Shown here piece after piece: positions 3,200 through 18,150 of a stretch of DNA of 56,495 bases. Both the position numbers and the translations under genes were made by a program. Below the pieces are notes generated by a model, which was given only the letters and a program-made list of their open reading frames with translations, was not told where the DNA came from and did no database searches. The number at the start of each line of letters is the position of its first letter. The first letter of the stretch is position 1. Source of the DNA: Lachnospiraceae bacterium (GTDB lineage: Bacteria > Bacillota > Clostridia > Lachnospirales > Lachnospiraceae); assembly GCA_022796475.1 (NCBI GenBank), contig JAAWIS010000015.1, positions 1 through 56,495 on the forward strand, written 5' to 3'.

Positions 3200-3511
3200 A
3201 TGAATGAAGAACTTAGAAAAGACATAGAAGCTGTACTAAATCTCTTTGTACGTCCTCAGCTTTCCAACCACGGCGGAGATATGGAAGTGGTGGATTTGGA
3301 TGAAGAGGGCATCTTATGGATTGAAATGTTAGGGGAATGTTCCGGATGTCCTTCTGCTGATGATACAGCGAAAAATCTTGTTCAGAAAGAATTAGTAACC
3401 CGTATTCCTCAGATTAAGGGAGTAGAAATCGATTCTGGGATCAGCGATGAAATAATTGCAGAAGCAATGAAACTATTTACCCATCGCTCAGAAAAAAAGG
3501 CTGCCCGGTAA
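3200..3511 (+). CDS. NifU-like Fe-S cluster carrier (Nfu C-terminal domain)
   Basis: This 103-aa protein is a single Nfu domain. It opens with a helix followed by VRPQLSNHGGDMEVVDLDE, a family hallmark, and carries the cluster-binding C-x-x-C in GECSGCPSAD at about residues 47-50. Such proteins hold a [4Fe-4S] cluster between subunits and pass it to apo-enzymes in the cytoplasm. AAGGAAGG precedes the ATG by 8 nt. Its place right behind a 4Fe-4S dehydratase gene suggests help with cluster loading, although Nfu proteins usually serve many clients. A strong terminator follows, so it ends the plus-strand transcription unit. Confidence 0.88.
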   Translation: MNEELRKDIEAVLNLFVRPQLSNHGGDMEVVDLDEEGILWIEMLGECSGCPSADDTAKNLVQKELVTRIPQIKGVEIDSGISDEIIAEAMKLFTHRSEKKAAR

Positions 3512-3584
3512 ATCTCATCCTTCCGGCTAAGATTTGTTTCAGACATGTTTTTACTTTATACACCAGATTTCTGCTTAATGATGC

Positions 3585-3625
3585 TGGCGGCAGGAAGAAT
3601 CCTGTCTTCCTGCCGCCAATTTTTC
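3585..3625 (+). terminator. Rho-independent terminator after the Nfu gene
   Basis: A perfect 13-bp stem (GGCGGCAGGAAGA at 3586-3598 with its complement at 3605-3617), a 6-nt loop and AATTTTT downstream. It separates the plus-strand genes from the converging minus-strand operon. On the minus strand the same stem has no T-run, so how that operon ends is unclear. Confidence 0.9.
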
Positions 3626-3720
3626 TGATTCTCTTGTTCCATCTATCTTTTTTGACTGATCTTTGTTTAATTTATTTTAAAAGTAAACTATTTTTGACCA
3701 ATATCCTGATCGCGAAACAA

Positions 3721-5109
3721 TTACTTGTTTTTTAAATACTCATGTATGCCTCTGGCCCCGGCTTTTCCGGCCTCCATAGCAAGAATTACCGTAGCAGCTC
3801 CCGTCACAGCGTCGCCGCCTGCGTATACACCTTCCTTTGTTGTTTTGCCATTGGTTTCATCTGCAATAATGCATTTCCACTTATTGATCTCCAAACCTTC
3901 TGTAGTGGAGGAAATCAATGGGTTAGGTGACGTTCCAAGGGACATAATCACCGTATCCACTTCGATTGTAAAGTCTGATCCCGGAACTTCAACTGGCCTT
4001 CTCCTTCCGGAAGCGTCCGGCTCGCCCAGTTCCATCTTCCGCACTACCATTCCCTTTACCCAGTCGTTCTCATCTGTTAAAATCTCTACCGGATTTGTCA
4101 GCAGGTCAAAAATTACGCCTTCTTCTTTCGCATGATGGACTTCCTCCACACGGGCGGGAAGTTCTGCCTCCGAACGGCGGTACACGATATGCACCTGGGC
4201 TCCTAGGCGCAGAGCTGTTCTGGCTGCATCCATAGCCACATTTCCGCCGCCTACTACCGCAACTTTCTTCCCGCCTATAATCGGAGTATCGTAGTCCTGT
4301 CGGAAGGCTTTCATTAGGTTATTTCTGGTTAAATATTCATTGGCAGAAAATACGCCGTTGGCGTTTTCCCCAGGAATCCCCATAAACTTAGGCAGACCTG
4401 CACCAGAACCGATAAAGACTGCCTGAAAGCCTTCCTCTTCCATCAACTGGTCAATGGTAACGGACTTTCCAATAATTACATTCGTTTCAATGGTTACGCC
4501 AAGCCTTTTTACATTTTCTACTTCGTGGCGGACTACGGTGTCCTTTGGCAGACGAAACTCCGGAATTCCGTAGATCAGTACGCCGCCTGGTTCATGGAGA
4601 GCCTCAAAGATGGTCACTTCATAGCCAAGCTTTGCCAGATCACCAGCACAGGTTAATCCGGCAGGACCGGAACCGATTACTGCTACCTTTTTTCCGTTGG
4701 TGCGTTCAGGTTTCGCCGGAACAAATCCTGCTTCCCTGGACCAGTCCGCCACAAATCGCTCCAGCTTTCCGATGGAAATAGGCTCGCCCTTAATTCCACG
4801 GATACATTTCCCTTCACACTGGCTTTCCTGGGGACATACACGTCCGCACACTGCCGGCAGTGCGGAGGCCTCTGCAATAATCTCTGCCGCCTTTAAGAAA
4901 TCCCCTGCCTCCACTTCTTTAATAAAGGCTGGAATATTAATGGCTACCGGGCAGCCGCTTACACATTTCGCATTCTGTTTGCACTTCAGACATCTGGAAG
5001 CTTCTTCCATTGCCTCTTCTTTTCCATATCCCAGACAGACTTCCTCAAAATTGGAAGCACGGACTTTCGGATCCTGCTCCCGCACCGGTACTTTCTTTAA
5101 CACATCCAT
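3721..5109 (-). CDS. nfnB: NADH-dependent ferredoxin:NADP+ oxidoreductase, large subunit (NfnL/NfnB, GltA/SudA-like)
   Basis: The 462-aa protein has two N-terminal [4Fe-4S] sites (Cys 40, 43, 49, 53 and Cys 88, 92, 98, 102), an FAD motif GSGPAG at 146-151 and an NADPH-binding GGGN at 287-290. This is the layout shared by NfnB and the glutamate synthase small subunit. Identity as NfnB rests on the neighbour: the gene for the small Nfn subunit lies directly upstream and overlaps by one base (TAATG), the usual clostridial nfnAB order. The cytoplasmic complex interconverts NADH plus reduced ferredoxin with NADPH by electron bifurcation. It is the last gene of the sigma-54 gene set. No glutamate synthase large subunit is present in the window. 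Confidence 0.88.
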   Translation of the reverse strand: MDVLKKVPVREQDPKVRASNFEEVCLGYGKEEAMEEASRCLKCKQNAKCVSGCPVAINIPAFIKEVEAGDFLKAAEIIAEASALPAVCGRVCPQESQCEGKCIRGIKGEPISIGKLERFVADWSREAGFVPAKPERTNGKKVAVIGSGPAGLTCAGDLAKLGYEVTIFEALHEPGGVLIYGIPEFRLPKDTVVRHEVENVKRLGVTIETNVIIGKSVTIDQLMEEEGFQAVFIGSGAGLPKFMGIPGENANGVFSANEYLTRNNLMKAFRQDYDTPIIGGKKVAVVGGGNVAMDAARTALRLGAQVHIVYRRSEAELPARVEEVHHAKEEGVIFDLLTNPVEILTDENDWVKGMVVRKMELGEPDASGRRRPVEVPGSDFTIEVDTVIMSLGTSPNPLISSTTEGLEINKWKCIIADETNGKTTKEGVYAGGDAVTGAATVILAMEAGKAGARGIHEYLKNK

Positions 5110-5999
5110 TACCTGTCACCTCCGCACTGTCCGCATCCACCGTGATGGGTATCTCCTTCTTGCACCCTTAACATGGCACGTCCTTCTTCTGTCCGATACA
5201 TCTGCTGACGCTTCATGGCCTGGTCAAAATTCACCAGATGGCCGTCAAACTCCGGCCCGTCCACACAGGCAAACTTTACCTGATCCCCTACGCTTAACCA
5301 GCAGGCCCCGCACATTCCTGTTCCGTCTACCATAATGGGATTCATGCTGACAATGGTGGGAAGATTCAGCTCCTTAGTCAATTTACAGACAAACTTCATC
5401 ATAATCATGGGGCCAATGGCCACACAGACATCGTAATGCTTCCCCTGTACAGTTACCAGATCTTGAATTACATCTGTTACCATGCCTTTTCTCACATAGG
5501 AACCATCGTCTGTGGTGATGTAAAGGTGTTCTGCCGCTTCCTTCATCTTATCCTCTAAGATCACCAGTTCTTTGCTTTTCGCCCCCACGATCACGTCCAC
5601 AGCAATGCCCTTTTCCTTCATCCATTTTACCTGGGGATATACCGGAGCTGCGCCCACTCCTCCTGCCACAAACAAATAGCTTCTCTTTTTCACCTCTTCC
5701 AGCTCTTCAGACACAAACTCAGAAGGCCGCCCTAAGGGACCGGTAATATCCTGAAACCCATCTCCTGCCTGGAGGGATGCCATCTTTAAGGTAGAAGCCC
5801 CCACTGTCTGAAACACAATGGTTACTGTCCCTTTTTCCCTGTTATAGTCACAGATTGTTAAGGGAATCCGCTCCCCCGTTTCATCCATTTTTACGATGAC
5901 AAATTCTCCTGGCTGACACCCTTTTGCTACCCGTGGCGCCTCTACGTCCATCAGATAAATCTTATCTGCCAGCTTCTCTGCTTTTAAGATTTTGTACAT
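5109..5999 (-). CDS. nfnA: NADH-dependent ferredoxin:NADP+ oxidoreductase, small subunit (NfnS/NfnA)
   Basis: This is a ferredoxin-reductase-type flavoprotein with an FAD domain (GEFVIVKMDETGERIPLTIC), a nucleotide-binding domain (VAGGVGAAPVYPQ) and a C-terminal [2Fe-2S] site (GMCGACW followed by KFACVDGPEFDG). The tail is rich in Gly, His and Cys. Start ATG 5999 follows GGAGG by 8 nt; another in-frame ATG at 6014 overlaps that GGAGG and is rejected, which gives 296 aa and the family N-terminus MYKILKAEKL. It forms the heterodimer with the next gene. A hairpin lies between it and the upstream dehydrogenase gene, so Nfn level may be tuned separately from the rest of the operon. Confidence 0.88.
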   Translation of the reverse strand: MYKILKAEKLADKIYLMDVEAPRVAKGCQPGEFVIVKMDETGERIPLTICDYNREKGTVTIVFQTVGASTLKMASLQAGDGFQDITGPLGRPSEFVSEELEEVKKRSYLFVAGGVGAAPVYPQVKWMKEKGIAVDVIVGAKSKELVILEDKMKEAAEHLYITTDDGSYVRKGMVTDVIQDLVTVQGKHYDVCVAIGPMIMMKFVCKLTKELNLPTIVSMNPIMVDGTGMCGACWLSVGDQVKFACVDGPEFDGHLVNFDQAMKRQQMYRTEEGRAMLRVQEGDTHHGGCGQCGGDR

Positions 6000-6038
6000 C
6001 AACCGTACCTCCATAGATTTTCATTATGTAATGCAAAA

Positions 6039-6086
6039 GGGCAGAACCAGACATTCTCTAGTGAAAAAAGCCGGGTTCTGCCTTTC
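6039..6086 (-). terminator. Hairpin between the dehydrogenase gene and nfnA (possible attenuator)
   Basis: A 9-bp stem, GGCAGAACC with GGTTCTGCC, encloses a loop of about 25 nt. On the minus strand it is followed by CTTTTGC, a weak T-run. It may terminate part of the transcripts or protect the mRNA end. Confidence 0.45.
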
Positions 6087-6108
6087 AGGCTTCCCTATCA
6101 GAGTTCCC

Positions 6109-7080
6109 TTATTTATTTTCTTCCTCAAACTGGTTCATCATCTTATACATAGCCACAATCCGCTTATTTCTCTTTTTGATATATCCATCCACATCCGCCG
6201 GATATTTGCCTAACATGCCTTCTCCTGCCCGAACTCCGGTTTTTCCTTCTGCAATCAGCTTATCCGCATAAGGAATCTTATCGGTACTGTTGCAAAGAGT
6301 TGGGAGAACATCAGCCGCCACTGCAATGGGAATCTGCAAACCTACGAAATCCCACAGCTCCAGAGGGCCTTCAAAGCTCCACCGAAGTCCGTCGGTGTAT
6401 TTTAAAGCGTTTTCTGCATCCTGTGGGGAAACCCAGCCTTGATCGATCATATAGTATAATTCACGACAAATTACTGTTGCCATCCGGTTTACAATAAATC
6501 CTGGCATAAACTTATTTAATACGGAAGGTTTCTTCCCGCATGCCTCCAGCAAATCACGCACAGCCAGAGCCGTTTCATCGGAGGTCTTCGGCCCCTTTAC
6601 CACCTCAATAATCTTCATCAGATGGGGCGGGTTGAACCAATGTGTGATAATTAACCGCTCCGGGTTCTTTAATACATCCTGGGTTACGCCAAATACATCC
6701 ATTCCGGAAGTATTGCTTGCGAAGATACAATCCTCCCGGCAGTTATCAGACAGAAGTTTGTATAAATCCCGTTTTGCATCTTTATTCTCAAAAATAACTT
6801 CCACTACCAGATCAAACCGGGAGGCATACTCCGGAATCTGGCTGTTCACTATGGTACTTAAATTTGCCTTTACGGTCTGGCCGTAAGACTCATCAGCCAG
6901 TCCATTTTCAACCATTCCGTCAATATTCCCCTCAATTCGCTTTACAGCCGTTTCCAGATACTCTTCCTTTAAATCTGCCATAACCGTTTGATAACCATTT
7001 GCTGCAAAAACCTGAGCAATGCCGCTGCCCATTACCCCTGCTCCTACTACCAGAATGTGGCTGATATTTGTTTTTCCCAT
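6109..7080 (-). CDS. 3-hydroxyacyl-CoA dehydrogenase-family protein (NAD-dependent)
   Basis: The N-terminal Rossmann motif GAGVMGSG (residues 13-20) and the segment THWFNPPHLMKIIEV carrying the expected catalytic His place this 323-aa protein in the 3-hydroxyacyl-CoA dehydrogenase family, which oxidises or reduces beta-hydroxyacyl substrates with NAD(H). It is about 40 residues longer than the usual 280-aa clostridial 3-hydroxybutyryl-CoA dehydrogenase. Relatives of this length include carnitine dehydrogenase-type enzymes, so the substrate may not be 3-hydroxybutyryl-CoA. AGGAGG lies 7 nt before ATG 7080. It follows the adenylating enzyme gene by 11 nt in the same operon. Confidence 0.8.
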   Translation of the reverse strand: MGKTNISHILVVGAGVMGSGIAQVFAANGYQTVMADLKEEYLETAVKRIEGNIDGMVENGLADESYGQTVKANLSTIVNSQIPEYASRFDLVVEVIFENKDAKRDLYKLLSDNCREDCIFASNTSGMDVFGVTQDVLKNPERLIITHWFNPPHLMKIIEVVKGPKTSDETALAVRDLLEACGKKPSVLNKFMPGFIVNRMATVICRELYYMIDQGWVSPQDAENALKYTDGLRWSFEGPLELWDFVGLQIPIAVAADVLPTLCNSTDKIPYADKLIAEGKTGVRAGEGMLGKYPADVDGYIKKRNKRIVAMYKMMNQFEEENK

Positions 7081-7091
7081 GATTCTTCCTC

Positions 7092-8588
7092 CTAATATAA
7101 GGTTTCTAAAAGCTTATAGTCATTGAGTTCCTTTGGAGCTTTCAGTGCCTGCCTGTCAATCTTGTTATTGACATTTCGCACAAAACGCTCCAACTGGAAC
7201 ATGGCGGTAGGCACCATATAATAAGGAATAATCTGCTTCAGCTTCCGCTTCAGTTCTTTTACATCAATCTGTTCCTCTGCAACGAAGTAAGCGCACAGAA
7301 TGTTGCATCCACCATTATCCTCAAATGCTTTTACTACCACCTCTTTAATGGAACTGCATTTTAAAATAGCAACTTCCACTGCCCCGGATTCCACCCGGAA
7401 ACCCCGTATCTTAAACATATTGTCTTTTCTGCATATGTATCTCAGATTGCCGTCCTCTGCCAGGCAAACGATATCTCTCGTTTGAAACACCCGTTCAAAT
7501 CCTTCCGGATGAGGAAAGGGATTTTCGATAAACTGAGCCTTTGTTGCTTCCGGGCGTTGATAATATCCCCGGCAGACCTGAGGGCCGGAAAGCCACAGCT
7601 CCCCTTCTTCCCCAGGTTTTGTCAGATTTCCTTTGTCATCCACAATATAACCTTTTATGGTTGGGTTAAATGTGCCGATAGGATAGGATTTTTCACTGCT
7701 GGTAATTTCGTACAGGGTAATAACTCCGCACAGTTCCGAAGCAGCATACGTGTTGATAATTTGATAACTTTTTGGCTGCAAATTTCTAACCGGCTCACTG
7801 CCCACTAAAAGCAGCCGCAGATGAAACTGGGAATCATCACACTGCATTAGCTTCATTGCCATATGGGGCGGCAGGAATGTAACTGTGATCCCTTTCTCCC
7901 GGTAAAACTGAGTAATCAAATCGATCTTCCTTCTTCTGTATTCCGGAATAATTACCAGGGTTGCCCCTACCAGAAGGGTGCTGAACACATCGTATACAGA
8001 AGCCACAAAGCCGAAGCTTGCAAATGCGCAAAACTTATCATTCTGGTTTAAGCCAAGCCGATCCATATTGCTGATGGAAGCCATAATATTTCGGTGTTCC
8101 AGCATCACTCCCTTAGGGGCAGAAGTAGAACCGGAAGTATAAATCATCACAGCCAACTCCTCCCTTTTGGAACGGTCAAAAAACTTTGCTCTCCGCTCCC
8201 AGGCAAGATTTTCAAAATATTCCCTGGTCAGCGTAACCTTAAACTGGCATTCGCGCTGCATAATCTCCCGCCTTGCCTCCGGATAGCTTTCATCGATATA
8301 AAGATAGGCGGCCCCTGCTTTTAAAACAGCCAGTATTCCGATAATCGTTTCCACATCTCTTCCTGTTTGGATGGCGACAAACTCTTCTCTTTTTACCCCG
8401 CTTCCAACCAGGATCCTTGCCAGAAAATTGCTGTATTCATCTAATTCCTGATAGCTTAATGAACGGGATTCACTTTCTACAGCAATCTTATCCGGATATT
8501 CCATGGCAGTTTTATGGAAAATCTGGCAGAATGTATGTTCAAAAAACACGTTCTTATCTTCACTGCACATTTTTAAACCCCACTTCAT
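7092..8588 (-). CDS. Stand-alone adenylate-forming enzyme (acyl-CoA synthetase/NRPS adenylation-domain fold)
   Basis: The core motifs of the ANL superfamily are present: YTSGSTSAPKGVMLEH (AMP/phosphate loop), GELWLSGPQVCRGY, QTRDIVCLAEDG (hinge Asp region), and near the C-terminus NNKIDRQAL with the catalytic Lys. The sequence reads more like an NRPS adenylation domain than a classic fatty acyl-CoA ligase, but no carrier or condensation domain follows (498 aa) and no carrier-protein gene is nearby. In a CoA-pathway operon the simplest role is ATP-dependent activation of the carboxylic acid substrate to its CoA ester. AGGAG precedes ATG 8588 by 7 nt. The specificity pocket was not decoded. Confidence 0.8.
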   Translation of the reverse strand: MKWGLKMCSEDKNVFFEHTFCQIFHKTAMEYPDKIAVESESRSLSYQELDEYSNFLARILVGSGVKREEFVAIQTGRDVETIIGILAVLKAGAAYLYIDESYPEARREIMQRECQFKVTLTREYFENLAWERRAKFFDRSKREELAVMIYTSGSTSAPKGVMLEHRNIMASISNMDRLGLNQNDKFCAFASFGFVASVYDVFSTLLVGATLVIIPEYRRRKIDLITQFYREKGITVTFLPPHMAMKLMQCDDSQFHLRLLLVGSEPVRNLQPKSYQIINTYAASELCGVITLYEITSSEKSYPIGTFNPTIKGYIVDDKGNLTKPGEEGELWLSGPQVCRGYYQRPEATKAQFIENPFPHPEGFERVFQTRDIVCLAEDGNLRYICRKDNMFKIRGFRVESGAVEVAILKCSSIKEVVVKAFEDNGGCNILCAYFVAEEQIDVKELKRKLKQIIPYYMVPTAMFQLERFVRNVNNKIDRQALKAPKELNDYKLLETLY

Positions 8589-8671
8589 GGTATTCTCCTA
8601 TCCCTGTTTCAACTCCCCCAATGCAGTAACCCCTTAGATTCCCTGGTGTACTGACACGGTTATGCCATACA

Positions 8672-9961
8672 TTAGTCAATAACGCCTTTGCCCTTCAGTG
8701 CCTCAATTTCCTCTGGCGTATAGTCTAACAGCTTCTTCATAATTTCCTCGGTATCCTGTCCAAGCTTTGGAGCGCCTCTCCACACCTGGCCTGGAGTTTC
8801 AGACAGCTTGGGAGCAAATCCAAAGGCAGTAACTTCCTTTTCCAGAGTCTGATCCTGGTAAGATACCCAGTCGCCTCTTTCCTTCCAGTGCTCTTCTTTC
8901 ATCACATCGTCACAATTTTTGATTACGGCTGCCCCGATCCGGTTGTCAATTAAGATATCGATGGCTTCCTGTGCAGTATGCTCCATAAAGTAGTCGGCAA
9001 ATTTCTGATCCAGTTCCTTGCCAAGATCGCTTTCCAGTGCTTCTTTGCTTCCGCCTGCTGCCTCATAGGAATATTTTTCAAGGTCAAAGCCAAAGCCTTT
9101 CATTACCTTCTCATAAGAACCTTTTCCGTATGCCCCCAGATTAATAAACTTGCCGTCCTTTGTTGGGAAAATGCCTGCCGGCTGATAGGTGTTCTGCTTG
9201 ATTCCCTGTCTTTGCTTCTGGATGCCTGCCTCACCCCATAAAGTAAAGTTATCATCCATCACTCTCATGTAGCTTTCGCACAGGGTAGAATCAATTACCT
9301 GTCCCTTTCCGGTCTGCTCTGCATGGCGCAGAGCCATCAAAATTCCGTTTACTGCAAACAAGCCGGATAAATAATCGCCAATATACTGCTGAGCATAGTA
9401 AGGCGGCTTGTCCGGGAATCCCTGAAGCAGGCACCAGCCAGATTCAGCCTGTGCCAGCGGATCGTAGCAGGCGCGGTTTAAGTGCCGTTCCAAACCGCCA
9501 AATTTTGGTGTTCCAAAACCGCTTACATGACAGATAACCAGCCTTGGATTTACCTCTAAAAGCATTTCATCTGTAATGCCCAGCTTGTCGATCCAAACCA
9601 TATTTTCAATCCATACATCACAGTTTTTAATCAGGGAAAGAAAAATCTCTTTTGACTCCGGAACCTTCTTTAAATTCGTTTCCAGAGAAAAGCTAAGCTT
9701 ATTGCGGGCATTCTGCATCCAGGAACCGCTAATGTGTTTCTCACCATTTTTAATCTGAGGCTGCTGATGCCTTGCAGTGTCACCGCCTACCTTAGGCCTT
9801 TCCAGCGCAATCACCTCTGCGCCGAAATCACTTAACATGGTAGCGGCAAAAGGAGCCGCTACTACAGAACCATTTAACAATACGCGGATTCCGCTTAACG
9901 GGCCGAATTCTTTCGTTAACAATGGCGCCGGTTTCTTTTCTAATTTTTCCCAACGATTCAT
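8672..9961 (-). CDS. Class III acyl-CoA transferase (CaiB/BaiF/Frc family)
   Basis: The 429-aa protein opens with GPLSGIRVLLNGSVVAAPFAATMLSDFGAEVIALERP cut short, i.e. the family pattern from GPLSGIRVL through DFGAEVIALE, and contains GFG, the RACYDPLAQAESG segment with a candidate catalytic Asp, and GKGQVIDSTLCE. Class III enzymes move CoA between carboxylic acids through an aspartyl-CoA intermediate in the cytoplasm. With an ATP-dependent activating enzyme in the same operon, the likely division of labour is priming by the ligase and ATP-free cycling by the transferase, as in carnitine and bile acid pathways. AGGAG lies 8 nt before ATG 9961. Confidence 0.88.
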   Translation of the reverse strand: MNRWEKLEKKPAPLLTKEFGPLSGIRVLLNGSVVAAPFAATMLSDFGAEVIALERPKVGGDTARHQQPQIKNGEKHISGSWMQNARNKLSFSLETNLKKVPESKEIFLSLIKNCDVWIENMVWIDKLGITDEMLLEVNPRLVICHVSGFGTPKFGGLERHLNRACYDPLAQAESGWCLLQGFPDKPPYYAQQYIGDYLSGLFAVNGILMALRHAEQTGKGQVIDSTLCESYMRVMDDNFTLWGEAGIQKQRQGIKQNTYQPAGIFPTKDGKFINLGAYGKGSYEKVMKGFGFDLEKYSYEAAGGSKEALESDLGKELDQKFADYFMEHTAQEAIDILIDNRIGAAVIKNCDDVMKEEHWKERGDWVSYQDQTLEKEVTAFGFAPKLSETPGQVWRGAPKLGQDTEEIMKKLLDYTPEEIEALKGKGVID

Positions 9962-10027
9962 ATATCTTTCTCCTTTTTGATTTCATGTTCTGTTTTGTTA
10001 TATTATTAACAATATAATGTCCAAGTT

Positions 10028-10058
10028 AGAGCGTGTCCGTTTTTTCCGGACACACTCT
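10028..10058. repeat. Intergenic perfect-arm hairpin with AGAGCGTGTC arm
   Basis: Arms AGAGCGTGTCCG (10028-10039) and CGGACACACTCT (10047-10058) pair over 12 positions with one G.U, around a T-rich loop. On the minus strand no T-run follows, so it is not a normal terminator. The arm shares AGAGCGTGTC with the ends of the MITE-like element at 26211-26376. Confidence 0.6.
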
Positions 10059-10073
10059 GCTGGCTTGTACCTT

Positions 10074-10907
10074 TTAGCATTCTGCCGGCTCATTCATGAT
10101 CATTCTGCCCACTGTGCCGCCAGTAACTTCAATAACTGCCCCATTCACATAGGAAGAAAGGTCAGTTGCCAAAAATTCGATTACATTTGCACAGTCTTCC
10201 ACTGTTCCGAAACGCTTCATGGCGACATTGCGCAGGAACGTTCCTTCACCGGCCTTCTTATAATTTTCAACCAGCCTTCCAGTTGCAATAAATCCTGGGG
10301 CAATACAGTTTGCCGTCACATTATAGCGTCCTGCCTCCTGGGCAAGAAGCTTGGTGTACTGTGCGATTGCTGCTTTTGAAGATGCGTAGTGGGCATAGCT
10401 TCCGTCGCTGTTTGCCACCAGCCCGCCTACAGAGATTACATTGACCACTTTGCCGTATCCTCTTTCTTTCATGCCAGGCACTACTGCATTACATGTATAT
10501 ACCGTACCATAATAATTCCGTTCTGTCACGGCGTAGAACTGTTCCCAGTTTAACTGGCTGGCTTTATTTCCGTCGGGAGCGCCCATCCCGCCGCCTGCGT
10601 TGCAGACTACGATGTCAATTGGGCCAAGCTCCTTTTCTATCTGTGCCACTGCCGCAAACACTTCTTCCCGTTTTGTAATATCTGCCTCAGCTCCGGCAGA
10701 TTTTACTCCAAGGGCGCGGCACTCATCCATAGTGGTTTCTGCAGTCAGCAGGTCAGCCTCTCCCTTAAAATCCTTATAGGATTTCAGATCGATATCAATA
10801 ACGCCTACATCCGCCCCCAGTTCTGCCAGGCGCAGGGCATAGGCCCTTCCTAAGCCTCTTGCCGCCCCTGTTACCAGTGCTACTTTTCCATCCAATCTCT
10901 TCGGCAT
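10074..10907 (-). CDS. Short-chain dehydrogenase/reductase (SDR)
   Basis: Classic SDR features are visible in 277 aa: the nucleotide motif TGAARGLGRAYA near residue 15, NAGGG, the catalytic Ser in NVISVGG, and Y-x-x-x-K in YASSKAA. Such enzymes oxidise or reduce hydroxyl/keto groups with NAD(P)H. AAGGAGG lies 6 nt before ATG 10907. Its position between the CoA-transferase and EtfA genes recalls the BaiA-type SDR of bile acid operons, but nothing in the sequence proves a steroid substrate; a hydroxyacyl-CoA is equally possible. Confidence 0.85.
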   Translation of the reverse strand: MPKRLDGKVALVTGAARGLGRAYALRLAELGADVGVIDIDLKSYKDFKGEADLLTAETTMDECRALGVKSAGAEADITKREEVFAAVAQIEKELGPIDIVVCNAGGGMGAPDGNKASQLNWEQFYAVTERNYYGTVYTCNAVVPGMKERGYGKVVNVISVGGLVANSDGSYAHYASSKAAIAQYTKLLAQEAGRYNVTANCIAPGFIATGRLVENYKKAGEGTFLRNVAMKRFGTVEDCANVIEFLATDLSSYVNGAVIEVTGGTVGRMIMNEPAEC

Positions 10908-10997
10908 ATTGCTCCTCCTTTTTCTTTCATTTTTTATAAATTTTATAAACGTCTTTATCCGTTTTTGAGAATCAGACTGCCGTTTTCAGCAGTTCTG

Positions 10998-12176
10998 CTA
11001 CCCCCATGCTTCCATCAGCTCCGGAATCACCTGGTACAAATCTCCTGCAATCCCATAATCTGCAACATCAAAAATTGGAGCCATGGGGTTTTTATTGATG
11101 GCTATAATCACATCTGATGTCTGCATTCCTGCCAGATGCTGAATTGCTCCGGATATTCCGCATGCAATATAAATTTTAGGCTTTACTGTGGTTCCAGTCT
11201 GTCCAACCTGGTGGGAATGGTCAATCCATCCAGAATCTACAGCCGCCCGGGATGCGCCTACCACGCCGCCTACTTTATCTGCAAATTTGCGGATCAGCTC
11301 AAACCCGGAAGCATCTCCTAAGCCAGCCCCGCCGGATACAATAATTTCTGCATCTGTCAGAGAAACCAGATCCTTTGCTGTCTTTACGATCTCAAGCACC
11401 TTTGTGCGGATATCCGATTCCTGAAGGTTTAAGGTAACCGGAATCACTTTCCCGGTACGCCCTTTTACTGCAGGTGCTTTTTCCATAACGCCTGGTCTTA
11501 CAGTAGACATCTGAGGCCTGTGATCCGGACATTTAATGGTTGCCATCAGGTTTCCGCCAAATGCCGGCCTGGTCTGTAGGATTCCCTTGGTATCCGGGTC
11601 AATTTCCAGCTTCGTGCAGTCGGCTGTCAGGCCGGTATTCACCCTTGCCGCGATCCTGGGTGCAAGATCACGGCCAATATGGGTTGCCCCATAAAGCACG
11701 ATCTCCGGCTTAAATTCATTGATCGCTTCAGAAATCACCTTTGTATAGCCATCTGATGTATAATTTGCCAGCAGGCTGCTCTCAGCCGTATATACAATAT
11801 CTGCCCCGGCCTCAAAAAGCTGTGCCGTCATATTCCCCAGGTTCTCCCCCAGCAGGACGGCGCAAAGGTTAACTCCTCCAATATCAGAGGCAAGGCCGCG
11901 GCCCTTTCCCAATAATTCAAATACTACCGGAGTAATCACGCCTGCCCTCTGTTCCGCAAATACCCACACATCCTGATAAGCCGACAGATCAGCTCCCTTT
12001 TCCTCTTCTTCCTTCGTAATCGCGCCAAACTTACAGGCTTCTACACACGTGCCGCACATGGTACATTTATCATTCAGCACAGCTTTTTTCTCCACCATGT
12101 CAATCGCGGAAAATGGGCAGGCCTTTACGCAAAGTGAGCATCCTTTACATTTGTCCTTACTGATTAATACAGCCAT
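10998..12176 (-). CDS. Electron transfer flavoprotein alpha subunit with N-terminal 2[4Fe-4S] ferredoxin domain (CarE-like)
   Basis: Residues 1-60 form a bacterial ferredoxin with two cluster motifs (Cys 10, 13, 16, 20 and Cys 38, 41, 44, 48), fused to a normal EtfA (residues about 65-392) ending with the FAD-binding [20 protein letters not shown] region (read from SGAIQHL to IIAIN). Plain EtfA lacks the ferredoxin part. The same fusion is known from CarE of the Acetobacterium woodii caffeyl-CoA reductase, an electron-bifurcating complex. The gene order here, acyl-CoA dehydrogenase, EtfB, EtfA, is also that of carCDE. AGGAGG lies 6 nt before ATG 12176. Bifurcation to ferredoxin is inferred. 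Confidence 0.88.
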
Positions 12177-12186
12177 ATCTTACCTC

Positions 12187-12975
12187 CTACAAAATATGTT
12201 TCTTCTTTAACTCCTCTACTACTTTTCCTGCTGCTTCCTTCGGCGTTCCCTCGATGAGCATTCCTTTTCCCTTTGGCTCTGGAGTAAACGAACGGAATAC
12301 TTTGGTTGGAGATGCGTTAATGCCGATTTCATCAAGCTTTACTAATATGTCATGTTCATTCCAGACCGTAATTTCTTTTTCATATGCCTCATAAATTCCC
12401 TTTACAGACATATATCTCGGTATATTTAACTCCTTCACTGCAGTCAAAAGGCAAGGCATTGGGATTTCAATAATTTCATATCCATCCTCTAACTGCCTCT
12501 TGACTGTCAGCGTTTTGTCATCCCATTTTAAAACTTCCTCTACATAAGTAACTTGAGGAATTCCCAGCCTTTCTGCAATCTGAGGCCCTACTTGTGCCGT
12601 ATCGCCGTCGATTGCCTGGCGGCCGGCAAAAATAAGGTCATAGCCGCCTATTTTTTTGATTGCTCCTGCAATTGTATTGGAAGTTGCCCAGGTATCTGCC
12701 CCGCCAAATGCCCGGCTGCTTAAAAGAATCCCATCGTCAGCTCCCTTGGCCAGACATTCCCGCAGAACTTCTGCTGCCTGAGGCGGCCCCATCGAAATAA
12801 CCGTGACCGTCGTTCCTTCCTTGGCATCCTTAATCCGGAGAGCTGCCTCCAATGCATTATCATCATCGGGATTTAAAATGCTTTCCACACCATCCCGGAT
12901 CAATGTTCCTGTTTTGGGATTGATTTTTACCTCATTGGTATTCGGAACCTGTTTGACACAAACTAATATTTTCAT
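12187..12975 (-). CDS. Electron transfer flavoprotein beta subunit (CarD-like)
   Basis: This 262-aa EtfB begins MKILVCVKQVPNTNEV, the family N-terminus, and holds the nucleotide-binding region FAGRQAIDGDTAQVGPQIAE around residue 115. GGAGG followed by 5 nt precedes ATG 12975; an in-frame ATG 33 nt upstream is rejected because it lacks the site and the family start. EtfB of bifurcating complexes binds NADH and FAD. It ends 10 nt before the EtfA start and follows the acyl-CoA dehydrogenase gene by about 110 nt, so the three are produced together. Confidence 0.9.
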   Translation of the reverse strand: MKILVCVKQVPNTNEVKINPKTGTLIRDGVESILNPDDDNALEAALRIKDAKEGTTVTVISMGPPQAAEVLRECLAKGADDGILLSSRAFGGADTWATSNTIAGAIKKIGGYDLIFAGRQAIDGDTAQVGPQIAERLGIPQVTYVEEVLKWDDKTLTVKRQLEDGYEIIEIPMPCLLTAVKELNIPRYMSVKGIYEAYEKEITVWNEHDILVKLDEIGINASPTKVFRSFTPEPKGKGMLIEGTPKEAAGKVVEELKKKHIL

Positions 12976-13083
12976 CCTTTCCTCCATTCTGTGCACACTT
13001 CGCAGCATTACAAGTCACCCCATTACAGGGTACAGACATGTATGAGTGAATTATTTTTCTTTCACCTGTTGCCTTCACAATTC

Positions 13084-14220
13084 TTACTTCAGCAAATTTC
13101 CGGAAATAACAAGTTTCTGAATTTCTGAAGTTCCCTCATAGATTGAAACCAGCCTTGCCGCCCTGGTCATCCGCTCAATGGCGTAATCCTGCATATAGCC
13201 ATATCCGCCGTGAATCTGAAGGGCTTTATATGCAACGGAATTACAAGTTTCGCCTGCCTTATATTTTGCCATAGCCGCCTGCATGGTTACTTTCTCATGC
13301 TTATCCAGCCGGTCTGCCACATCGTAGACCAAAAGCCTTGTAGCCTGTACCTCTGTGGCCATATCTGCAAGTTTAAATGCCACATCCTGCAGCTTGCAGA
13401 TAGGTTTGCCAAACTGTACCCTTTCCTTGGAATACTGGACTGCCAGATCAAGACAGCCGGCTGCAATGCCAAGGCCCTGAGCAGCTACTGTTACCCGTCC
13501 TGCATCCAGAATTCCCATCGCAATCTTAAATCCCTGGCCTTCCTCACCTAACAAATTTTCCTTGGGAACCTTTACATTATTAAAGATCAGATCCGATGTA
13601 ACGGAAGCGTGCATTCCCATCTTCTCTTCCGTCTTTCCCCGGGAAAAGCCTTCCCATGCTGCCTCTACGATAAATGCGCTGATGCCCCGTGTTCCCTTGG
13701 CTTTTAAGTCGGATTTTGCAAATACCACTGCGTAATCACAAACTGGCCCCATGGTAATAAAACACTTTCGTCCATTTAAGATATAGCAGCCTTGCTTCTC
13801 ATCCCACAGACAGGTGGTTTGAGTAGCTGCTGAGTCGGAACCAGCTCCCGGCTCAGTCAGTGCAAACGCACCGATGGCTTCTCCCAGCACCATAGGCTTT
13901 AAATATTTCTGCTTTTGTTCTTCCGTTCCATAGTATAAGTAGGGAGCCCCTGACAGGGAATTGCTCATCAGCAGGGAGGAGGCAGAGGCGTCTTTTTTAC
14001 AAAATTCCTCTACTACAATTGCAAGTGACTTATAATCGCCGCCTGCGCCGCCATATTCCTTTGGGATCGTGATTCCGCCAAATCCATATTTTGCTGATTT
14101 CTTCAGCAGTTCTTCCGGATATTTCCCATCCTTCTCTGCATCTGCAGCTATCGGCTCAAGTTCTCTTTCTGCAAACTCTTTTGCCAGCTTCCTTAGCATT
14201 TCATGTTTCAGTTCAAACAT
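13084..14220 (-). CDS. Acyl-CoA dehydrogenase/enoyl-CoA reductase (CarC- or Bcd-like)
   Basis: The 378-aa protein has the standard layout: helical N-terminus, the FAD/substrate segment ALTEPGAGSDSAATQT, ITMGPVCDY, and the C-terminal YEGTSEIQ with the catalytic Glu. With adjacent EtfBA it should form a complex that reduces an alpha,beta-unsaturated acyl-CoA with NADH while reducing ferredoxin, though reversible oxidation is possible. Start: AGGAGG at 14232-14227 lies 6 nt before ATG 14220, and the site itself spans the stop of the upstream gene, so translation is coupled. An in-frame ATG at 14235 overlaps the site. Substrate chain or ring cannot be read from sequence. Confidence 0.88.
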   Translation of the reverse strand: MFELKHEMLRKLAKEFAERELEPIAADAEKDGKYPEELLKKSAKYGFGGITIPKEYGGAGGDYKSLAIVVEEFCKKDASASSLLMSNSLSGAPYLYYGTEEQKQKYLKPMVLGEAIGAFALTEPGAGSDSAATQTTCLWDEKQGCYILNGRKCFITMGPVCDYAVVFAKSDLKAKGTRGISAFIVEAAWEGFSRGKTEEKMGMHASVTSDLIFNNVKVPKENLLGEEGQGFKIAMGILDAGRVTVAAQGLGIAAGCLDLAVQYSKERVQFGKPICKLQDVAFKLADMATEVQATRLLVYDVADRLDKHEKVTMQAAMAKYKAGETCNSVAYKALQIHGGYGYMQDYAIERMTRAARLVSIYEGTSEIQKLVISGNLLK

Positions 14221-14231
14221 CATTAACCTCC

Positions 14232-16235
14232 TCATTCTAGATCATTCGCTAGTATAAAAGCATCCTTTACTGCCTCTGTTATCCTTCCCGGTCTTCTGGC
14301 ATCTCCGATAAGCACCAGACGATCCCCATACAGTTCCTTCAGACCGTCAAAGTCCTTATTTTCCTTCCAGCCCTGGCTGATGATCACCAAATCACAAGGG
14401 ATTTCTTTTCTGGCTCCTCCTGCCTGGTAAATCATTCTTCCCTGGCTCATCTGCTCTGCCGCTGCCTCCGGTTCTATAAAAATGCCCTGCCGTTCTGTTT
14501 CCTTCAACATGATCCAGCGGGTGCTTTTACCAAATCCTCTACCAACTCTTTTTTCCGGGCTTAACAGTGTTACCCGGCTGTCCTCCCAGCCCATAACACC
14601 TTTGGCAAATTCGGAATACTCCGGAATATAATGGCTTAAAAATTCCTTCTCCCTGTCACCCTTTTTCCTGGCCATGGCACAGTACTGGGCTGTCTGGACT
14701 GCCTTATATCCGGATCCGATAATAACAATATTTCTTCCGTTTACCTCATCCGACAAAATAGCCTCTTCTGCCGCAACAACTGTCGTACTCCCTTTTTCCT
14801 TGTACCGGGATACATCTACGGAGCTTCCGGCGGCTATCACAACCTGGTCAAACCGGTTCTGATCCAGCAGTTCTTTCAGCTCCTCCGCTCTGCCTTCTCT
14901 GCCCCATTGAAACGCCACGCCAAGAGAAATGCATTTCTGAAACAGATAGTCCAGATAAACTCTTACATCACCTCTGCCAGGAAGCTTTGCAACGGCTCTC
15001 GCAGCACCTCCGTAATGCAGGCCTTTTTCCCAAATCGTAACCTGGTTTCCAATAGCTTGAAGCGCTGCATATACCATCCCGCTGATCCCGGCTCCGATTA
15101 CCAGGATCCGTTTTCCTTCATGCTTTAACCGGAAAGGCGCCCCTTCTCTTCCTGCAAAAGGATTGACTGCACACGCCAGCCCTTCTCCGGAAAAAATCCG
15201 TTCCAGGCACTGCTGGTTGCAGGCCAGGCATGGCCGGATCGGTTCTGTTTTTCCATCTTTCCATTTATTTACCAGATCCGGATCTGCAATCAGCCCTCTG
15301 AGTATCCCTGCCATATCGCAGCAGTTTTGCTCAACAGCCTCTGCAGCGCTTTCAGCATCCAGCCTGTTGCAGCCAATCACCGGAATACCTGCCGATTTCT
15401 TTACCACTTTTGCAAGATAAAGATACATTCCTCTGGGAACGTGGTAAGTAATCTGGGGAACTGCCGATTCATGCCAGCCGCCCGTAATATTTATGGCATC
15501 CACCTGGTTTCTGACTGCACCTACAATCGTTTCCAGTTCATCTGGCCCATTGCCTCCCGGAATAAAATCGGAACCAGACAACCGGAGTATAACCGGATAA
15601 TCTTCTCCCACACCCTTCCGAACGGCTTCCAGGATATCCGTTAAAAACCGGATCCGCCCGGAAAGCGTTCCTCCATATTCATCCTGCCTTTGATTGACAG
15701 CCTTTGAGAGAAATTCTGCAATCAGGTATCCGGCACTTCCGATCAGCTCGATACCGTCAAAACCAGCCTTCTGTGCCCTTACTGCACCATCCTGAAACCA
15801 GGAAATAATCTGGCGGATCTCTGATTCGGTTAAAGCAAACGCAGTTTCTCCAGTAAATTTACACAAATACGATGACGGCGCCACTGCCGGAAGTCCTCCA
15901 TGCTCACTTTGTTTTGCATATGCGCCGGCATGCATCAACTGTAAAAATAGTTTCCCGTCTTTTTTGTGAACCGCCTGAACAAGACGCTTCATTCCAGGAA
16001 TAAAACGGTCATCATAAATCTGCATCATGCCTGCATGATTCACCCTTACCGGGTCAATCCCTGCTGCTCCTGCTATGATCAGTCCAACTCCGCCCTCTGC
16101 TCTCTTTTGGTAAAACGAAATTACTTTTTCAGAAACGAAACCTTCCCTGCACCAGCCTAAATTTACTGCCGGCATAACAAAACGGTTTTTCACCCTGCAT
16201 CTGCCTATTGAACAAGGCGTCAGCATCAGACTCAT
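14232..16235 (-). CDS. NADH:flavin oxidoreductase of the 2-enoate reductase/BaiCD-BaiH/2,4-dienoyl-CoA reductase group
   Basis: A 667-aa three-part flavoenzyme: an FMN TIM barrel of the Old Yellow Enzyme type (residues 1-330, with HAGAYA near 102 and DEYGGTLSGRIRF near 185), a [4Fe-4S] site (Cys 336, 339, 343, 355) and a C-terminal FAD/NAD(P) reductase part (GAGISG at 381-386). Such enzymes reduce C=C bonds conjugated to a carbonyl, in free enoates, dienoyl-CoA or 3-oxo-delta4-steroid-CoA. It is the first gene after the sigma-54 promoter, with a leader of about 80 nt and a GAGGAAG site 8 nt before ATG 16235. Its stop overlaps the Shine-Dalgarno site of the next gene. Confidence 0.85.
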   Translation of the reverse strand: MSLMLTPCSIGRCRVKNRFVMPAVNLGWCREGFVSEKVISFYQKRAEGGVGLIIAGAAGIDPVRVNHAGMMQIYDDRFIPGMKRLVQAVHKKDGKLFLQLMHAGAYAKQSEHGGLPAVAPSSYLCKFTGETAFALTESEIRQIISWFQDGAVRAQKAGFDGIELIGSAGYLIAEFLSKAVNQRQDEYGGTLSGRIRFLTDILEAVRKGVGEDYPVILRLSGSDFIPGGNGPDELETIVGAVRNQVDAINITGGWHESAVPQITYHVPRGMYLYLAKVVKKSAGIPVIGCNRLDAESAAEAVEQNCCDMAGILRGLIADPDLVNKWKDGKTEPIRPCLACNQQCLERIFSGEGLACAVNPFAGREGAPFRLKHEGKRILVIGAGISGMVYAALQAIGNQVTIWEKGLHYGGAARAVAKLPGRGDVRVYLDYLFQKCISLGVAFQWGREGRAEELKELLDQNRFDQVVIAAGSSVDVSRYKEKGSTTVVAAEEAILSDEVNGRNIVIIGSGYKAVQTAQYCAMARKKGDREKEFLSHYIPEYSEFAKGVMGWEDSRVTLLSPEKRVGRGFGKSTRWIMLKETERQGIFIEPEAAAEQMSQGRMIYQAGGARKEIPCDLVIISQGWKENKDFDGLKELYGDRLVLIGDARRPGRITEAVKDAFILANDLE

Positions 16236-16326
16236 GGCATCTCTTCCTCTCTTTTGTTATTTCCGCAAGGGATCTTTAACCGATCCTGCCTGCTGGGGGA
16301 CAGTTCACTCTCCTATTAATGTTAAT

Positions 16327-16342
16327 AGCAATTCACGTGCCA
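16327..16342 (-). promoter_or_regulatory. Sigma-54 (-24/-12) promoter of the catabolic operon
   Basis: On the minus strand the sequence reads TGGCACGTGAATTGCT, matching the sigma-54 consensus TGGCACG-N4-TTGCA/T at every defined position, with the GG and GC dinucleotides correctly spaced. It lies about 90 nt upstream of the ATG of the first operon gene, and the neighbouring gene encodes a sigma-54 activator. Confidence 0.92.
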
Positions 16343-16351
16343 AATCACTAT

Positions 16352-16387
16352 ATTGAAAAACAGCAGATTTTTCCTGTTTTTTTCAAT
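16352..16387. promoter_or_regulatory. Inverted repeat next to the sigma-54 promoter
   Basis: ATTGAAAAACAG (16352-16363) faces CTGTTTTTTTCAAT (16374-16387), an inverted repeat with two extra T. It starts 10 bp upstream of the -24 element. It may be a secondary regulator site or help DNA bending; no protein can be named. Confidence 0.4.
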
Positions 16388-16427
16388 GCCTATGTCTTTT
16401 TTTCAGATATTTAGAGCTTTCATCCCG

Positions 16428-16459
16428 AAAAACTGTACGATATTCATACAGCAGTTTTT
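16428..16459. promoter_or_regulatory. Candidate upstream activator site for the sigma-54 regulator
   Basis: CTGTA (16433-16437) and TACAG (16447-16451) form an inverted repeat with a 9-bp spacer, overlapped by a longer one, AAAAACTG/CAGTTTTT (16428-16435 and 16452-16459). The centre is about 100 bp upstream of the -24 element, the usual distance for an enhancer bound by a dimeric Fis-type HTH. The assignment is inferred from position and symmetry. Confidence 0.55.
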
Positions 16460-16645
16460 CTATTGTCCTTCTATTAATCACAGAATACCACAGCGCCATC
16501 CCCTGGAGCGTTTATTTCATAGAACCCACTTTCCTATGAACCTTCATGCACCCGGAAGCGGCTCCAGCGCTAAGCTGTTACAGTCCCCCCATGCCCCGCT
16601 TAGGGCACAGCGAACCCAGCGCCGAGCTTTCACCATAAATACATA

Positions 16646-16697
16646 AAAAGTCCCTGGCTGACAAGAAATCTGCTTTCTTATCAGCCAGGGACTTTTA
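16646..16697 (-). terminator. Terminator of the sigma-54 activator gene
   Basis: A long stem pairs GTCCCTGGCTGA (16650-16661) with TCAGCCAGGGAC (16681-16692), extended inside by AAGAAA/TTTCTT and flanked by A and T runs on both sides, so it can work in both directions. It isolates the regulator gene from the operon that it likely controls. The remaining part of 16236-16746 holds the promoter elements listed and nothing coding. Confidence 0.88.
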
Positions 16698-16746
16698 TTT
16701 TTATCGTAACCGTTCCATAAGGGGAGCTTCTTCCTTATCTGAACCG

Positions 16747-18150
16747 CTATTTTGATTCCTCTTCCTCTGTATCATCAACATCGATTTCGTACTTTTTTAT
16801 CTTATCATAAAAAGAGCTTCTTGATATTCCCAGTTTTTGGATCGCCTCTGTTTTATTGGAAAATTTTTTCAGCGCTTTCTGAATTAAATCCTTCTCCAAA
16901 ATTTCCGTCATATCCTTCAGATTATAATTCATATCCTTAGCTCTGGGAACCTCCATATCCTCTGCAGACCGCAGATACTGCGGCAGAGCATAGACATCAA
17001 TTAAATTATCATCACGCATAATACAGGCGTGTTCGATTACGTTTTGCAGTTCCCGGATATTTCCCGGCCAGTCATATAGATTTAAACAGGTCATCACCCT
17101 GGGATCTACATTGATATTCTCGCCGGTAATCTTTTTTACCAAATGATGCACCAGAATCGGGATATCTTCTTTCCTGGAGCGCAGAGGTGTAATTTTTAAT
17201 TCAATCACATTTAACCGGAAATACAGATCTTGTCTGAATTTACCGATCCGAATCAATTCCTCCAGATTCTGATTTGTGGCTGCCACAATCCTTACATTTA
17301 ACGGAATGGGCCTGGAGCCTCCGATCCGTTCTACCTCCCGCTCCTGAAGCACCCTGAGCAGCTTTACCTGCATATTAACCGGCATATCCCCAATTTCATC
17401 CAAAAAAATAGTTCCGTTTTGGGCCAGCTCAAACTTTCCCGCTTTTCCCTCTTTCCTGGCTCCCGTAAAAGCCCCTCCTACATAACCGAATAATTCGCTT
17501 TCCAAAAGGTTATCCGGGATTGCGGCACAGTTTACTTTTACAAAAGGCCCTTCATGCCGCTGGCTGTTTGCATGGATAATTTTGGCCATAATCTCTTTTC
17601 CTACTCCGCTTTCTCCCCGGATTAGGACATTGGCTGAAGATTTCGCCACCCGGATGGCAAGCCCTAATACATGCTTCATATGGGAATTTACTGTAACAAA
17701 CTCCCTGGCCTGCTGAGCTGTCACAGAAGAGTCAAACTGCTCCTCCAGATACCGGTTCATCTCCTTGGTACGCTGGAGCTTTGATACAAGCTTAATATAT
17801 TCTGTCGTATTATTAAAAACAGAAACGCCTCCTACCACTTCTCCATGATACCGGATTGGACAGGAGATCCCCACTGAGTCCATATTGGCAGATTTCAGAT
17901 ATTCCGTCCTGTGGATCAGGGCAGTTCCTGTTTTTAATGCCTGGATAGCAGGTGTATGCTCCTCCTCAATATCGCAGAGCTTTTTCCCGATAATCTGCTC
18001 TACTTTACGGTTAAAGGTTTTTTCATAGGCCTGGTTGATATATACAACTCTGGTTTCCTGATCAATCACCATCACGACATCCGTAACATTATCCATTATT
18101 TCACAAAACAGCTTATTCTCAAACAACTTTCCGTACTCTTCTGGCATCAT
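16747..18150 (-). CDS. PAS-domain sigma-54-dependent transcriptional activator (bEBP)
   Basis: A 467-aa activator with an N-terminal PAS domain (VVMVIDQETRVVYINQAY, residues about 20-120), a complete AAA+ domain with Walker A GESGVGKE (about 179-186) and the sigma-54 contact loop GAFTGA (about 226-231), the FLDEIGDMP Walker B, and a Fis-type HTH at the end (KTEAIQKLGISRSSFYDKI). Since all motor motifs are intact it should be able to open sigma-54 promoters. The PAS domain probably senses the pathway substrate or its CoA form. Start ATG 18150 or 18147 after AGGGG; the reading frame continues upstream to a TTG at 18249 but without a site. A terminator follows, then the operon promoter. Confidence 0.9.
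   Translation of the reverse strand: MMPEEYGKLFENKLFCEIMDNVTDVVMVIDQETRVVYINQAYEKTFNRKVEQIIGKKLCDIEEEHTPAIQALKTGTALIHRTEYLKSANMDSVGISCPIRYHGEVVGGVSVFNNTTEYIKLVSKLQRTKEMNRYLEEQFDSSVTAQQAREFVTVNSHMKHVLGLAIRVAKSSANVLIRGESGVGKEIMAKIIHANSQRHEGPFVKVNCAAIPDNLLESELFGYVGGAFTGARKEGKAGKFELAQNGTIFLDEIGDMPVNMQVKLLRVLQEREVERIGGSRPIPLNVRIVAATNQNLEELIRIGKFRQDLYFRLNVIELKITPLRSRKEDIPILVHHLVKKITGENINVDPRVMTCLNLYDWPGNIRELQNVIEHACIMRDDNLIDVYALPQYLRSAEDMEVPRAKDMNYNLKDMTEILEKDLIQKALKKFSNKTEAIQKLGISRSSFYDKIKKYEIDVDDTEEEESK

Follow-up and report, generated by a model that had tools for sequence, protein, structure and literature searches.

A conserved car-like gene cluster with putative radical gamma-dehydratases and a predicted sigma-54 promoter in a Lachnospiraceae genome

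The described system closest to the locus reported here is the caffeate (car) system of Acetobacterium woodii, in which a coenzyme A (CoA) ligase, a CoA-transferase and the CarCDE complex are combined: ATP is used once for priming, and CoA is then recycled from product to substrate. The car genes presumably include those for the ligase and the CoA-transferase, and such genes also lie beside Car-like genes here. The bile acid (bai) operon shares with this locus, as we assume, genes for a CoA ligase, an old yellow enzyme (OYE)-type protein, a short-chain dehydrogenase (SDR) and a class III CoA-transferase. The nearest published regulatory parallels are the XanR and YctR sigma-54 regulons of Clostridiales, with predicted abfD-nifU and caiB-bcd-etfAB operons; judged from the portion of the source available, their gene sets differ from the one described below (PMC6615313). 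The gamma-butyrobetaine (bbu) cluster of Emergencia timonensis comprises, in the accessible part of its report, two class III CoA-transferases, a di-[4Fe-4S] ferredoxin, a betaine/carnitine/choline carrier and a thioesterase (PMC8364193). In this work we analyzed a 56,495-nucleotide stretch (the window; contig JAAWIS010000015.1, positions 1 to 56,495) from the assembly GCA_022796475.1 of a Lachnospiraceae bacterium, a clostridium that probably lives in the gut (170 contigs, 3,766,310 bases, 95.6% complete), in which ten minus-strand genes at 3721-16235 follow a predicted sigma-54 promoter. The locus is real and conserved and very probably under sigma-54 control, and from its gene content it is best read as a variant of car-type systems with a putative radical gamma-dehydration.

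The ten genes, with the OYE-type gene first and the NfnL gene last, overlap their neighbors by at most 4 bases or sit 10-112 bases apart. For comparison, 18 loci were collected by a CoA-transferase search of a species-level genome set. The likeness to car lies in the gene trio of CarCDE, all three members of which were found: an acyl-CoA dehydrogenase-family enoyl-CoA reductase (ACAD, 13084-14235), the electron-transfer flavoprotein subunit EtfB (12187-13008), and EtfA with an N-terminal two-[4Fe-4S] ferredoxin domain marked by two Cys motifs (10998-12176). The best solved relative of ACAD is CarC (6fah_C, E 9.5e-125) and that of the ferredoxin-EtfA is CarE (6fah_A, E 2.4e-164, residues 1-389); EtfB was assigned by profile and not against solved structures (NF040731, 470.8 bits, above the cut-off of 445). 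ACAD carries Glu367, which is present in 11 of 11 loci with a match (five at 90-92% identity, six at 30-50%). Because the enoyl-CoA reductase is of the Car type, it is probably bifurcating. The pathway had been called probably electron-bifurcating in an earlier sequence-only reading of positions 3721-18150; the Car-type reductase and an Nfn-type pair are indeed present, and bifurcation itself is suggested by homology only.

The remaining members of the unit extend the car pattern. The OYE-type flavoenzyme (14232-16235), previously described as enoate-reductase-like, is better called 2,4-dienoyl-CoA-reductase-like: its best solved relative is the 2,4-dienoyl-CoA reductase 1ps9 (E 2.4e-79), with identical Tyr166, His252 and Fe-S Cys columns. 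We take Tyr166 and His252 to be catalytic, and the Cys residues to bind the Fe-S cluster, in FadH-type 2,4-dienoyl-CoA reductases. The SDR typical of the cluster (SDR-A, 10074-10907) has Tyr174 in 12 of 12 loci with a match (L019 only via an SDR-B-like gene), and the class III CoA-transferase of the CaiB family (8672-9961; CaiB 1xk6, E 1.1e-43) has Asp196 in 18 of 18 relatives. CoA activation is assigned to a stand-alone adenylating enzyme resembling nonribosomal peptide synthetase adenylation (A) domains (the ligase, 7092-8588), with Val195 at the position where amino-acid adenylating domains presumably bind the amino group by Asp; Val is also found in 9 of 9 matched relatives. It is followed by a 3-hydroxyacyl-CoA dehydrogenase-like protein (HAD, 6109-7080; 3HCDH_N, 168.7 bits; 6aa8, E 1.7e-44), whose His147 is kept in 7 of 7 loci with a match. 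The last two genes encode an NfnS-like FAD/NAD subunit (5109-6014; PRK06222, 408.1 bits, cut-off 220) and an NfnL-like subunit of the GltA family (3721-5109; TIGR01316, 578.1 bits, cut-off 471.75); they are adjacent and match the N-terminal and C-terminal parts of the fused model PRK12778, respectively, each alone scoring below the cut-off of that model. All ten open reading frames (ORFs) of the families first listed are thus present behind the promoter, and no thiolase or hydratase was found among them by family profile matches. Unlike car, the locus has a dienoyl-CoA-reductase-like enzyme, SDRs, a HAD, gamma-dehydratases, an Nfn-like pair, an A-domain-like ligase and sigma-54 control; the extra dehydratase and SDR genes argue for an acid other than caffeate.

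The dehydratases are encoded outside the interval first considered, whose gene unit was right and whose limits were too narrow, with linked genes at 1-3511 and on another contig, C30. A plus-strand unit converges on the ten genes. It begins with the C-terminal end of a second dehydratase resembling 4-hydroxybutyryl-CoA dehydratase (4HBD) at 3-143 (46 residues and a stop; 87% identical over 45), followed by a complete flavin/[4Fe-4S] enzyme of the 4HBD type (4HBD-1, 162-1802, likely start ATG 183; HpaB_N/HpaB). The best solved relative of 4HBD-1 is the 4-hydroxybutyryl-CoA dehydratase 1u8v (266 bits, E 4.2e-78), followed by vinylacetyl-CoA delta-isomerase 6vjr (246.5 bits); hydroxylases of the family reach at most 103.6 bits. 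The aligned positions C115, C119, H321, C328, Y325, K329 and E281 are filled, and we take the first four to be the [4Fe-4S] ligand positions of the 4HBD family. These ligand columns are kept in 30, 31, 30 and 29 of 32 aligned rows, some of them partial; gaps account for six of the eight exceptions, Val and Lys for one each. 4HBD-1 thus resembles 1u8v in the Fe-S ligand, Tyr, Lys and Glu257-equivalent positions; unlike it, 4HBD-1 has Ser for T190 and Ala for E455, scores 266 bits only, and has different neighbors. Downstream lie a carrier of the major facilitator superfamily (MFS), lactate/oxalate-formate type (1832-3142; MFS_1; SfMCT 241.5 bits, below the cut-off of 320), and a NifU-domain protein, presumed to supply Fe-S clusters to the dehydratase (3200-3511; PF01106, 73.8 bits).

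Only three 4HBD pieces were found in the genome at E ≤ 0.001: the full gene, the window end and the end of C30. Window bases 3-137 match dehydratase residues 501-545, and the very end of C30 matches residues 6-343. The second dehydratase is therefore probably one gene cut by an assembly gap, with its N-terminal part closing C30; on this simplest reading C30 would abut the window. C30 (locus L036) also holds a second SDR (SDR-B), a DUF1097 membrane protein and a lactonase of the phosphotriesterase (PTE) family. Divergent sigma-54-like sites are found there before SDR-B and DUF1097 (one mismatch each) and before the dehydratase (two mismatches). The divergent pairing of DUF1097 with SDR-B recurs (L036:7099-7614 and L003:309-830), and the membrane protein possibly serves transport.

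We next consider the control of the unit. The predicted -24/-12 element TGGCACGTGAATTGCT lies at 16327-16342 on the minus strand and was identified by genome pattern search and by conservation in relatives. The pattern TGGCACGNNNNTTGCW has a single exact match in the 3,766,310-base genome, which is this site. With up to one mismatch it has 29 matches (16 + 13), versus 14 (5 + 9) for the reversed control pattern; at 29 matches per genome, a correctly oriented site would fall within 200 bases by chance with a probability near 0.001. A promoter with zero or one mismatch stands directly 5' of the homologous OYE gene in all six relatives in which that gene comes next after the activator (L003-L008). 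In L009, where SDR-A comes next, no sigma-54 site was found at up to two mismatches. The activator gene (16747-18150, minus strand) encodes PAS, sigma-54-interaction and Fis-type helix-turn-helix domains with GAFTGA at ORF residue 259; the ORF reaches 18249, and the ATG at 18150 fits the match start in relatives. There is one rpoN match in the genome; in L004 an rpoN gene (Pfam) directly precedes the activator, and L007 has a gene of the same BLAST cluster at that place. Sigma-54-like sites also occur 5' of dehydratase genes in L003 (one mismatch) and, as stated, in L036. The near-consensus promoter, the intact activator and the predicted sigma-54 control of one co-directional unit, all claimed from the letters alone, were borne out by these comparisons.

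The symmetrical upstream site noted earlier contains the predicted activator site TGTATGAATATCGTACA (16434-16450, minus strand), a palindrome of the TGT-N11-ACA type positioned 91 bases upstream of the -24 element; its score was attained by 10 of 1000 Markov-resampled sequences. The upstream sites of the window and of the first genes in the relatives are all TGT-N11/12-ACA palindromes, and the resampled sequences reaching their scores, per 1000, were 79 for L003, 9 for L004, 3 for L008, and 1 each for L005, L006 and L007. At other genes the counts were 149 (SDR-B), 172 (DUF1097) and 23 (dehydratase) in L036, 16 (SDR-B) and 72 (dehydratase) in L003, 24 for L005 SDR-B, 89 for L006 DUF1097 and 0 for the L008 Etf unit. 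On these counts the palindrome is convincing at most first-gene promoters and at L008 Etf, and weak elsewhere. As far as the source could be consulted, 15 other activator groups of Clostridiales have sites in which 10-12 bases separate TGT from ACA, and the XanR and YctR sites are listed as distinct motifs (PMC6615313).

On balance, and with a confidence only slightly better than even, we favor the reading that the locus encodes an inducible, CoA-dependent and CoA-recycling reductive pathway of the car type, extended by a radical dehydratase; as its substrate we would guess a hydroaromatic acid of the shikimate/quinate type that carries several hydroxyls. The reaction order, the bifurcation, the net reduction, the adjacency of C30 and the substrate are each points that we infer. 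The activator would sense the acid or a derivative and open the sigma-54 promoters, and the MFS carrier would take up the acid. The adenylating enzyme would activate the first acid, and the class III CoA-transferase would later move CoA from the reduced product to fresh substrate. Hydroxyl or keto groups may be adjusted by the two SDRs and the HAD, and the flavin/[4Fe-4S] dehydratases could strip the gamma-hydroxyl as water to give an enoyl- or dienoyl-CoA. Reduction of the double bonds would fall to the dienoyl-CoA-reductase-like enzyme and to the CarCDE-like complex, which probably bifurcates electrons from NADH to ferredoxin; NADH, NADPH and ferredoxin would be kept in balance by the Nfn-like pair. 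gamma-Hydroxyacyl-CoA tends to lactonize, and the C30 lactonase may reopen gamma-lactones formed spontaneously in this way.

Reduction with CoA recycling looks likelier than degradation because the ten genes include no thiolase or hydratase. The inducible acid-activating, double-bond-reducing route proposed before us thus stands as far as CoA activation and the enoyl-CoA reductase are concerned; its label of degradation fits less well, the route looking reductive. The enzyme sequence set out above suggests that a polyhydroxylated acid serves, on being reduced, as electron sink. The C3 and C5 hydroxyls of shikimate and quinate are both gamma to the thioester, and two dehydratases would suit two gamma-hydroxyls, as in these acids. 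A wider proposal, which we hold to be doubtful, makes the locus the gene set so far lacking for the anaerobic, reductive removal of hydroxyls from hydroaromatic plant acids (shikimate, quinate and relatives), leading toward cyclohexane-type acids; the two radical gamma-dehydratases, the dienoyl-CoA reductase and a bifurcating enoyl-CoA reductase would then form an energy-conserving electron sink in the gut and other anoxic habitats. The locus joins radical gamma-dehydration, dienoyl-CoA reduction and CarCDE-type enoyl-CoA reduction under predicted sigma-54 control; among the matches listed from open-access papers, subscription papers being outside the scope, we recognized no description of this gene set or combination in the parts accessible. 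The exact gene set, the promoters and the relatives in isolates make candidate acids testable, and a conversion of which only the products are known may thereby gain its genes.

Several observations weigh against this preferred reading. No quinate- or shikimate-specific gene was recognized by eye in the printed translations, in which not every ORF is annotated, and the genome has a single shikimate dehydrogenase-domain match, so the substrate guess gains no support from it. The carrier in the window resembles lactate/oxalate carriers. The Glu of the E455 position, which we take to be a catalytic residue of the Clostridium aminobutyricum dehydratase, is missing from 4HBD-1 (Ala); in the column, placed from the 1u8v alignment, the 32 rows have Ala 23 times, Ser three times, Gly and Asp once each, and four gaps. 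In L004 and L007 the ferredoxin domain of EtfA is absent (the match starts at residue 58-60), and L009 and L010 carry a FabK-like gene without OYE. The palindromes at the L003 first gene, the L003 dehydratase, L006 DUF1097 and L036 (149 and 172) are often matched by resampled sequence. A 68% relative of the dehydratase, in L067 (G1228), lies among degradative-looking genes, and the HAD here together with the crotonase genes of L004 and L007 could mean beta-oxidation.

The last two points belong to a degradative alternative, in which a growth substrate would be gamma-dehydrated, reduced and then passed by housekeeping beta-oxidation enzymes into central metabolism instead of serving as an electron sink. 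We consider this possible, though not the reading to prefer. The HAD gene of the unit, the crotonase genes and the thiolase-, BKACE- and CoA-transferase-like genes seen by eye in L067 speak for it; against it, the ten genes include no thiolase, hydratase or ring hydrolase, no HAD match was found in the 21 kb of L009, and ligase, CoA-transferase and CarCDE-like set together form the caffeate layout of CoA recycling. It is unlikely that the substrate is instead a 4-hydroxy-5-arylvalerate from dietary flavan-3-ols, reduced to 5-arylvalerate. Its gamma-hydroxyl and gamma-lactone form would suit the PTE-family lactonase, CarC (the closest solved relative of ACAD) is an aryl-enoyl-CoA reductase, and some carrier genomes appear to be metagenome-assembled genomes from the gut; however, such an acid has one gamma-hydroxyl only, so that two SDRs and a dienoyl-CoA reductase would have no evident task, relatives also occur in Sporomusa and Pseudoramibacter, and among the matches listed from open papers on flavan-3-ol lactones no gene assignment was seen.

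Fermentation of plain 4-hydroxybutyrate or another short gamma-hydroxy acid under sigma-54 control, on the model of the predicted XanR abfD-nifU operon, is quite unlikely. The likeness to 4-hydroxybutyrate systems became concrete only through genes outside the interval first read, namely the two dehydratases, the carrier, the NifU-like gene and the SDR and lactonase of C30. The match of the dehydratase to 1u8v, its best solved relative, and the NifU-domain gene beside it would agree with such a fermentation, as would the abfD-nifU sigma-54 regulon predicted in Clostridium in the part of the publication available (PMC6615313). Such a fermentation would leave two SDRs, the dienoyl-CoA reductase and the A-domain-like ligase without a role, and the two dehydratase copies and the replaced E455 also argue against it. 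We regard gamma-butyrobetaine or carnitine reduction of the bbu/cai type as highly improbable. L-carnitine CoA-transferase is the best curated model of the CoA-transferase (234.6 bits), but this score is below the PRK03525 cut-off of 413, on which carnitine (cai) was rejected. The locus is like bbu in its class III CoA-transferase and ACAD-family enzyme and unlike it in gene set and in trimethylamine-lyase chemistry; bbu, our first suspect, was rejected on the single CoA-transferase among the ten genes, the MFS carrier and the mismatch with the gene set in the available portion of the report. Bile acids were also rejected, the OYE protein scoring 322.3 bits against the BaiCD cut-off of 825; unlike bai, the locus has gamma-dehydratase and Etf genes. 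That the mixture matches none of the bai, car and 4-hydroxybutyrate systems fully, as had been noted from the sequence, was confirmed.

Among the 18 loci, the order activator-OYE-ACAD-EtfB-EtfA-SDR-A-CoA-transferase-ligase is kept in five (L003-L007), with identities of 92-95% for SDR-A, 86-90% for the CoA-transferase, 57-66% for the ligase and 53-58% for OYE. The search for the ten-gene order thus recovered the first seven genes, in two of the five loci (L004 and L007) with an inserted crotonase gene and a ferredoxin-less EtfA; in no locus of the 18 was the NfnS-NfnL pair seen to come next after HAD, though several end too early to show it. In L010 an NfnS-NfnL pair lies about 8 kb from the CoA-transferase. 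The ferredoxin-less EtfA genes (L004:7185-8198 and L007:7100-8110) stand in otherwise collinear loci and offer a natural comparison for the role of the domain. L008 has the activator, OYE, a 42% ACAD, SDR-A, CoA-transferase, ligase and HAD; a divergent unit there holds EtfB, a ferredoxin-less EtfA and another ACAD (51%). In 10 of the 18 loci (L003-L010, L013 and L017) the homologous CoA-transferase has dehydratase genes no more than 10 kb away; several of the remaining eight are short. Two copies, or parts of two, are present in L003, L004, L006 and L013, and a second one in L008 is suggested by a pair of antisense frames. The L005 EtfB and EtfA genes were found by tblastn and one L008 dehydratase by frame translation, these genes having lain under antisense frames.

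Relatives in isolates are Clostridium vitabionis YH-T4B42, with the closest layout, and Pseudoramibacter alactolyticus and Sporomusa sp. KB1, with other layouts. In L066 a dehydratase gene is found beside CoA ligase, SDR, OYE and Etf genes and an aromatic-acid-type MFS carrier, which agrees with the preferred reading; the L066 ligase shares 75% identity with a ligase of Sporomusa sp. KB1. The neighbors in L067, by eye, include thiolases, BKACE, AtoDA, Ptb/Buk and an OYE-like gene, apparently a hydroxy-acid fermentation. The gene in place of OYE in L009 (16176-17144; NCBIfam, Pfam) and L010 (5953-6948; by eye) is of the FabK/nitronate-monooxygenase family. In L011, L012 and L014 the CoA-transferase is near molybdenum-enzyme genes; at L011:6116-11284 and L014:9872-14538 the enzyme is of the dimethyl sulfoxide-reductase family (Pfam for L014, same BLAST cluster for L011), accompanied by a small Fe-S protein identified by eye and by upstream sigma-54-like sites with one mismatch; these genes may serve a further CoA- or acid-dependent dehydroxylation.

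The cluster is a rare accessory trait. The following counts are of genome samples, in which carriers such as those among the 18 loci may be missed. Of 11 genomes sampled from the genus one has the CoA-transferase (E ≤ 1e-60), and of 200 from the family two have it, the second with an identity of 49%; the dehydratase (E ≤ 1e-120) was found in 1 of 392 order, 1 of 391 class and 26 of 398 phylum genomes, five of the last, including the genome itself, at 57% identity at least; and SDR-A (E ≤ 1e-75) in 1 of 398 sampled phylum genomes, its own. Acquisition by horizontal transfer is likely, and the G+C content of 0.466-0.472 over positions 1-16000, versus 0.394-0.457 in the rest, gives it weak support.

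Two terminator-like hairpins were noted, one at 3585-3618 (plus strand) between the convergent units (14 pairs, 9 of them G-C, with a T run) and one at 16648-16694 (minus strand) 3' of the activator gene (20 pairs, 9 G-C). The hairpin scan of the region gave 24 sites versus 18.7 in shuffled sequence, so only long stems are informative. Elsewhere in the window, at 32373-39101, 42516-45074 and 49540-50322, we observed genes for a 2242-residue SpaA/Cna_B-repeat protein and two RsgI-like anti-sigma proteins.

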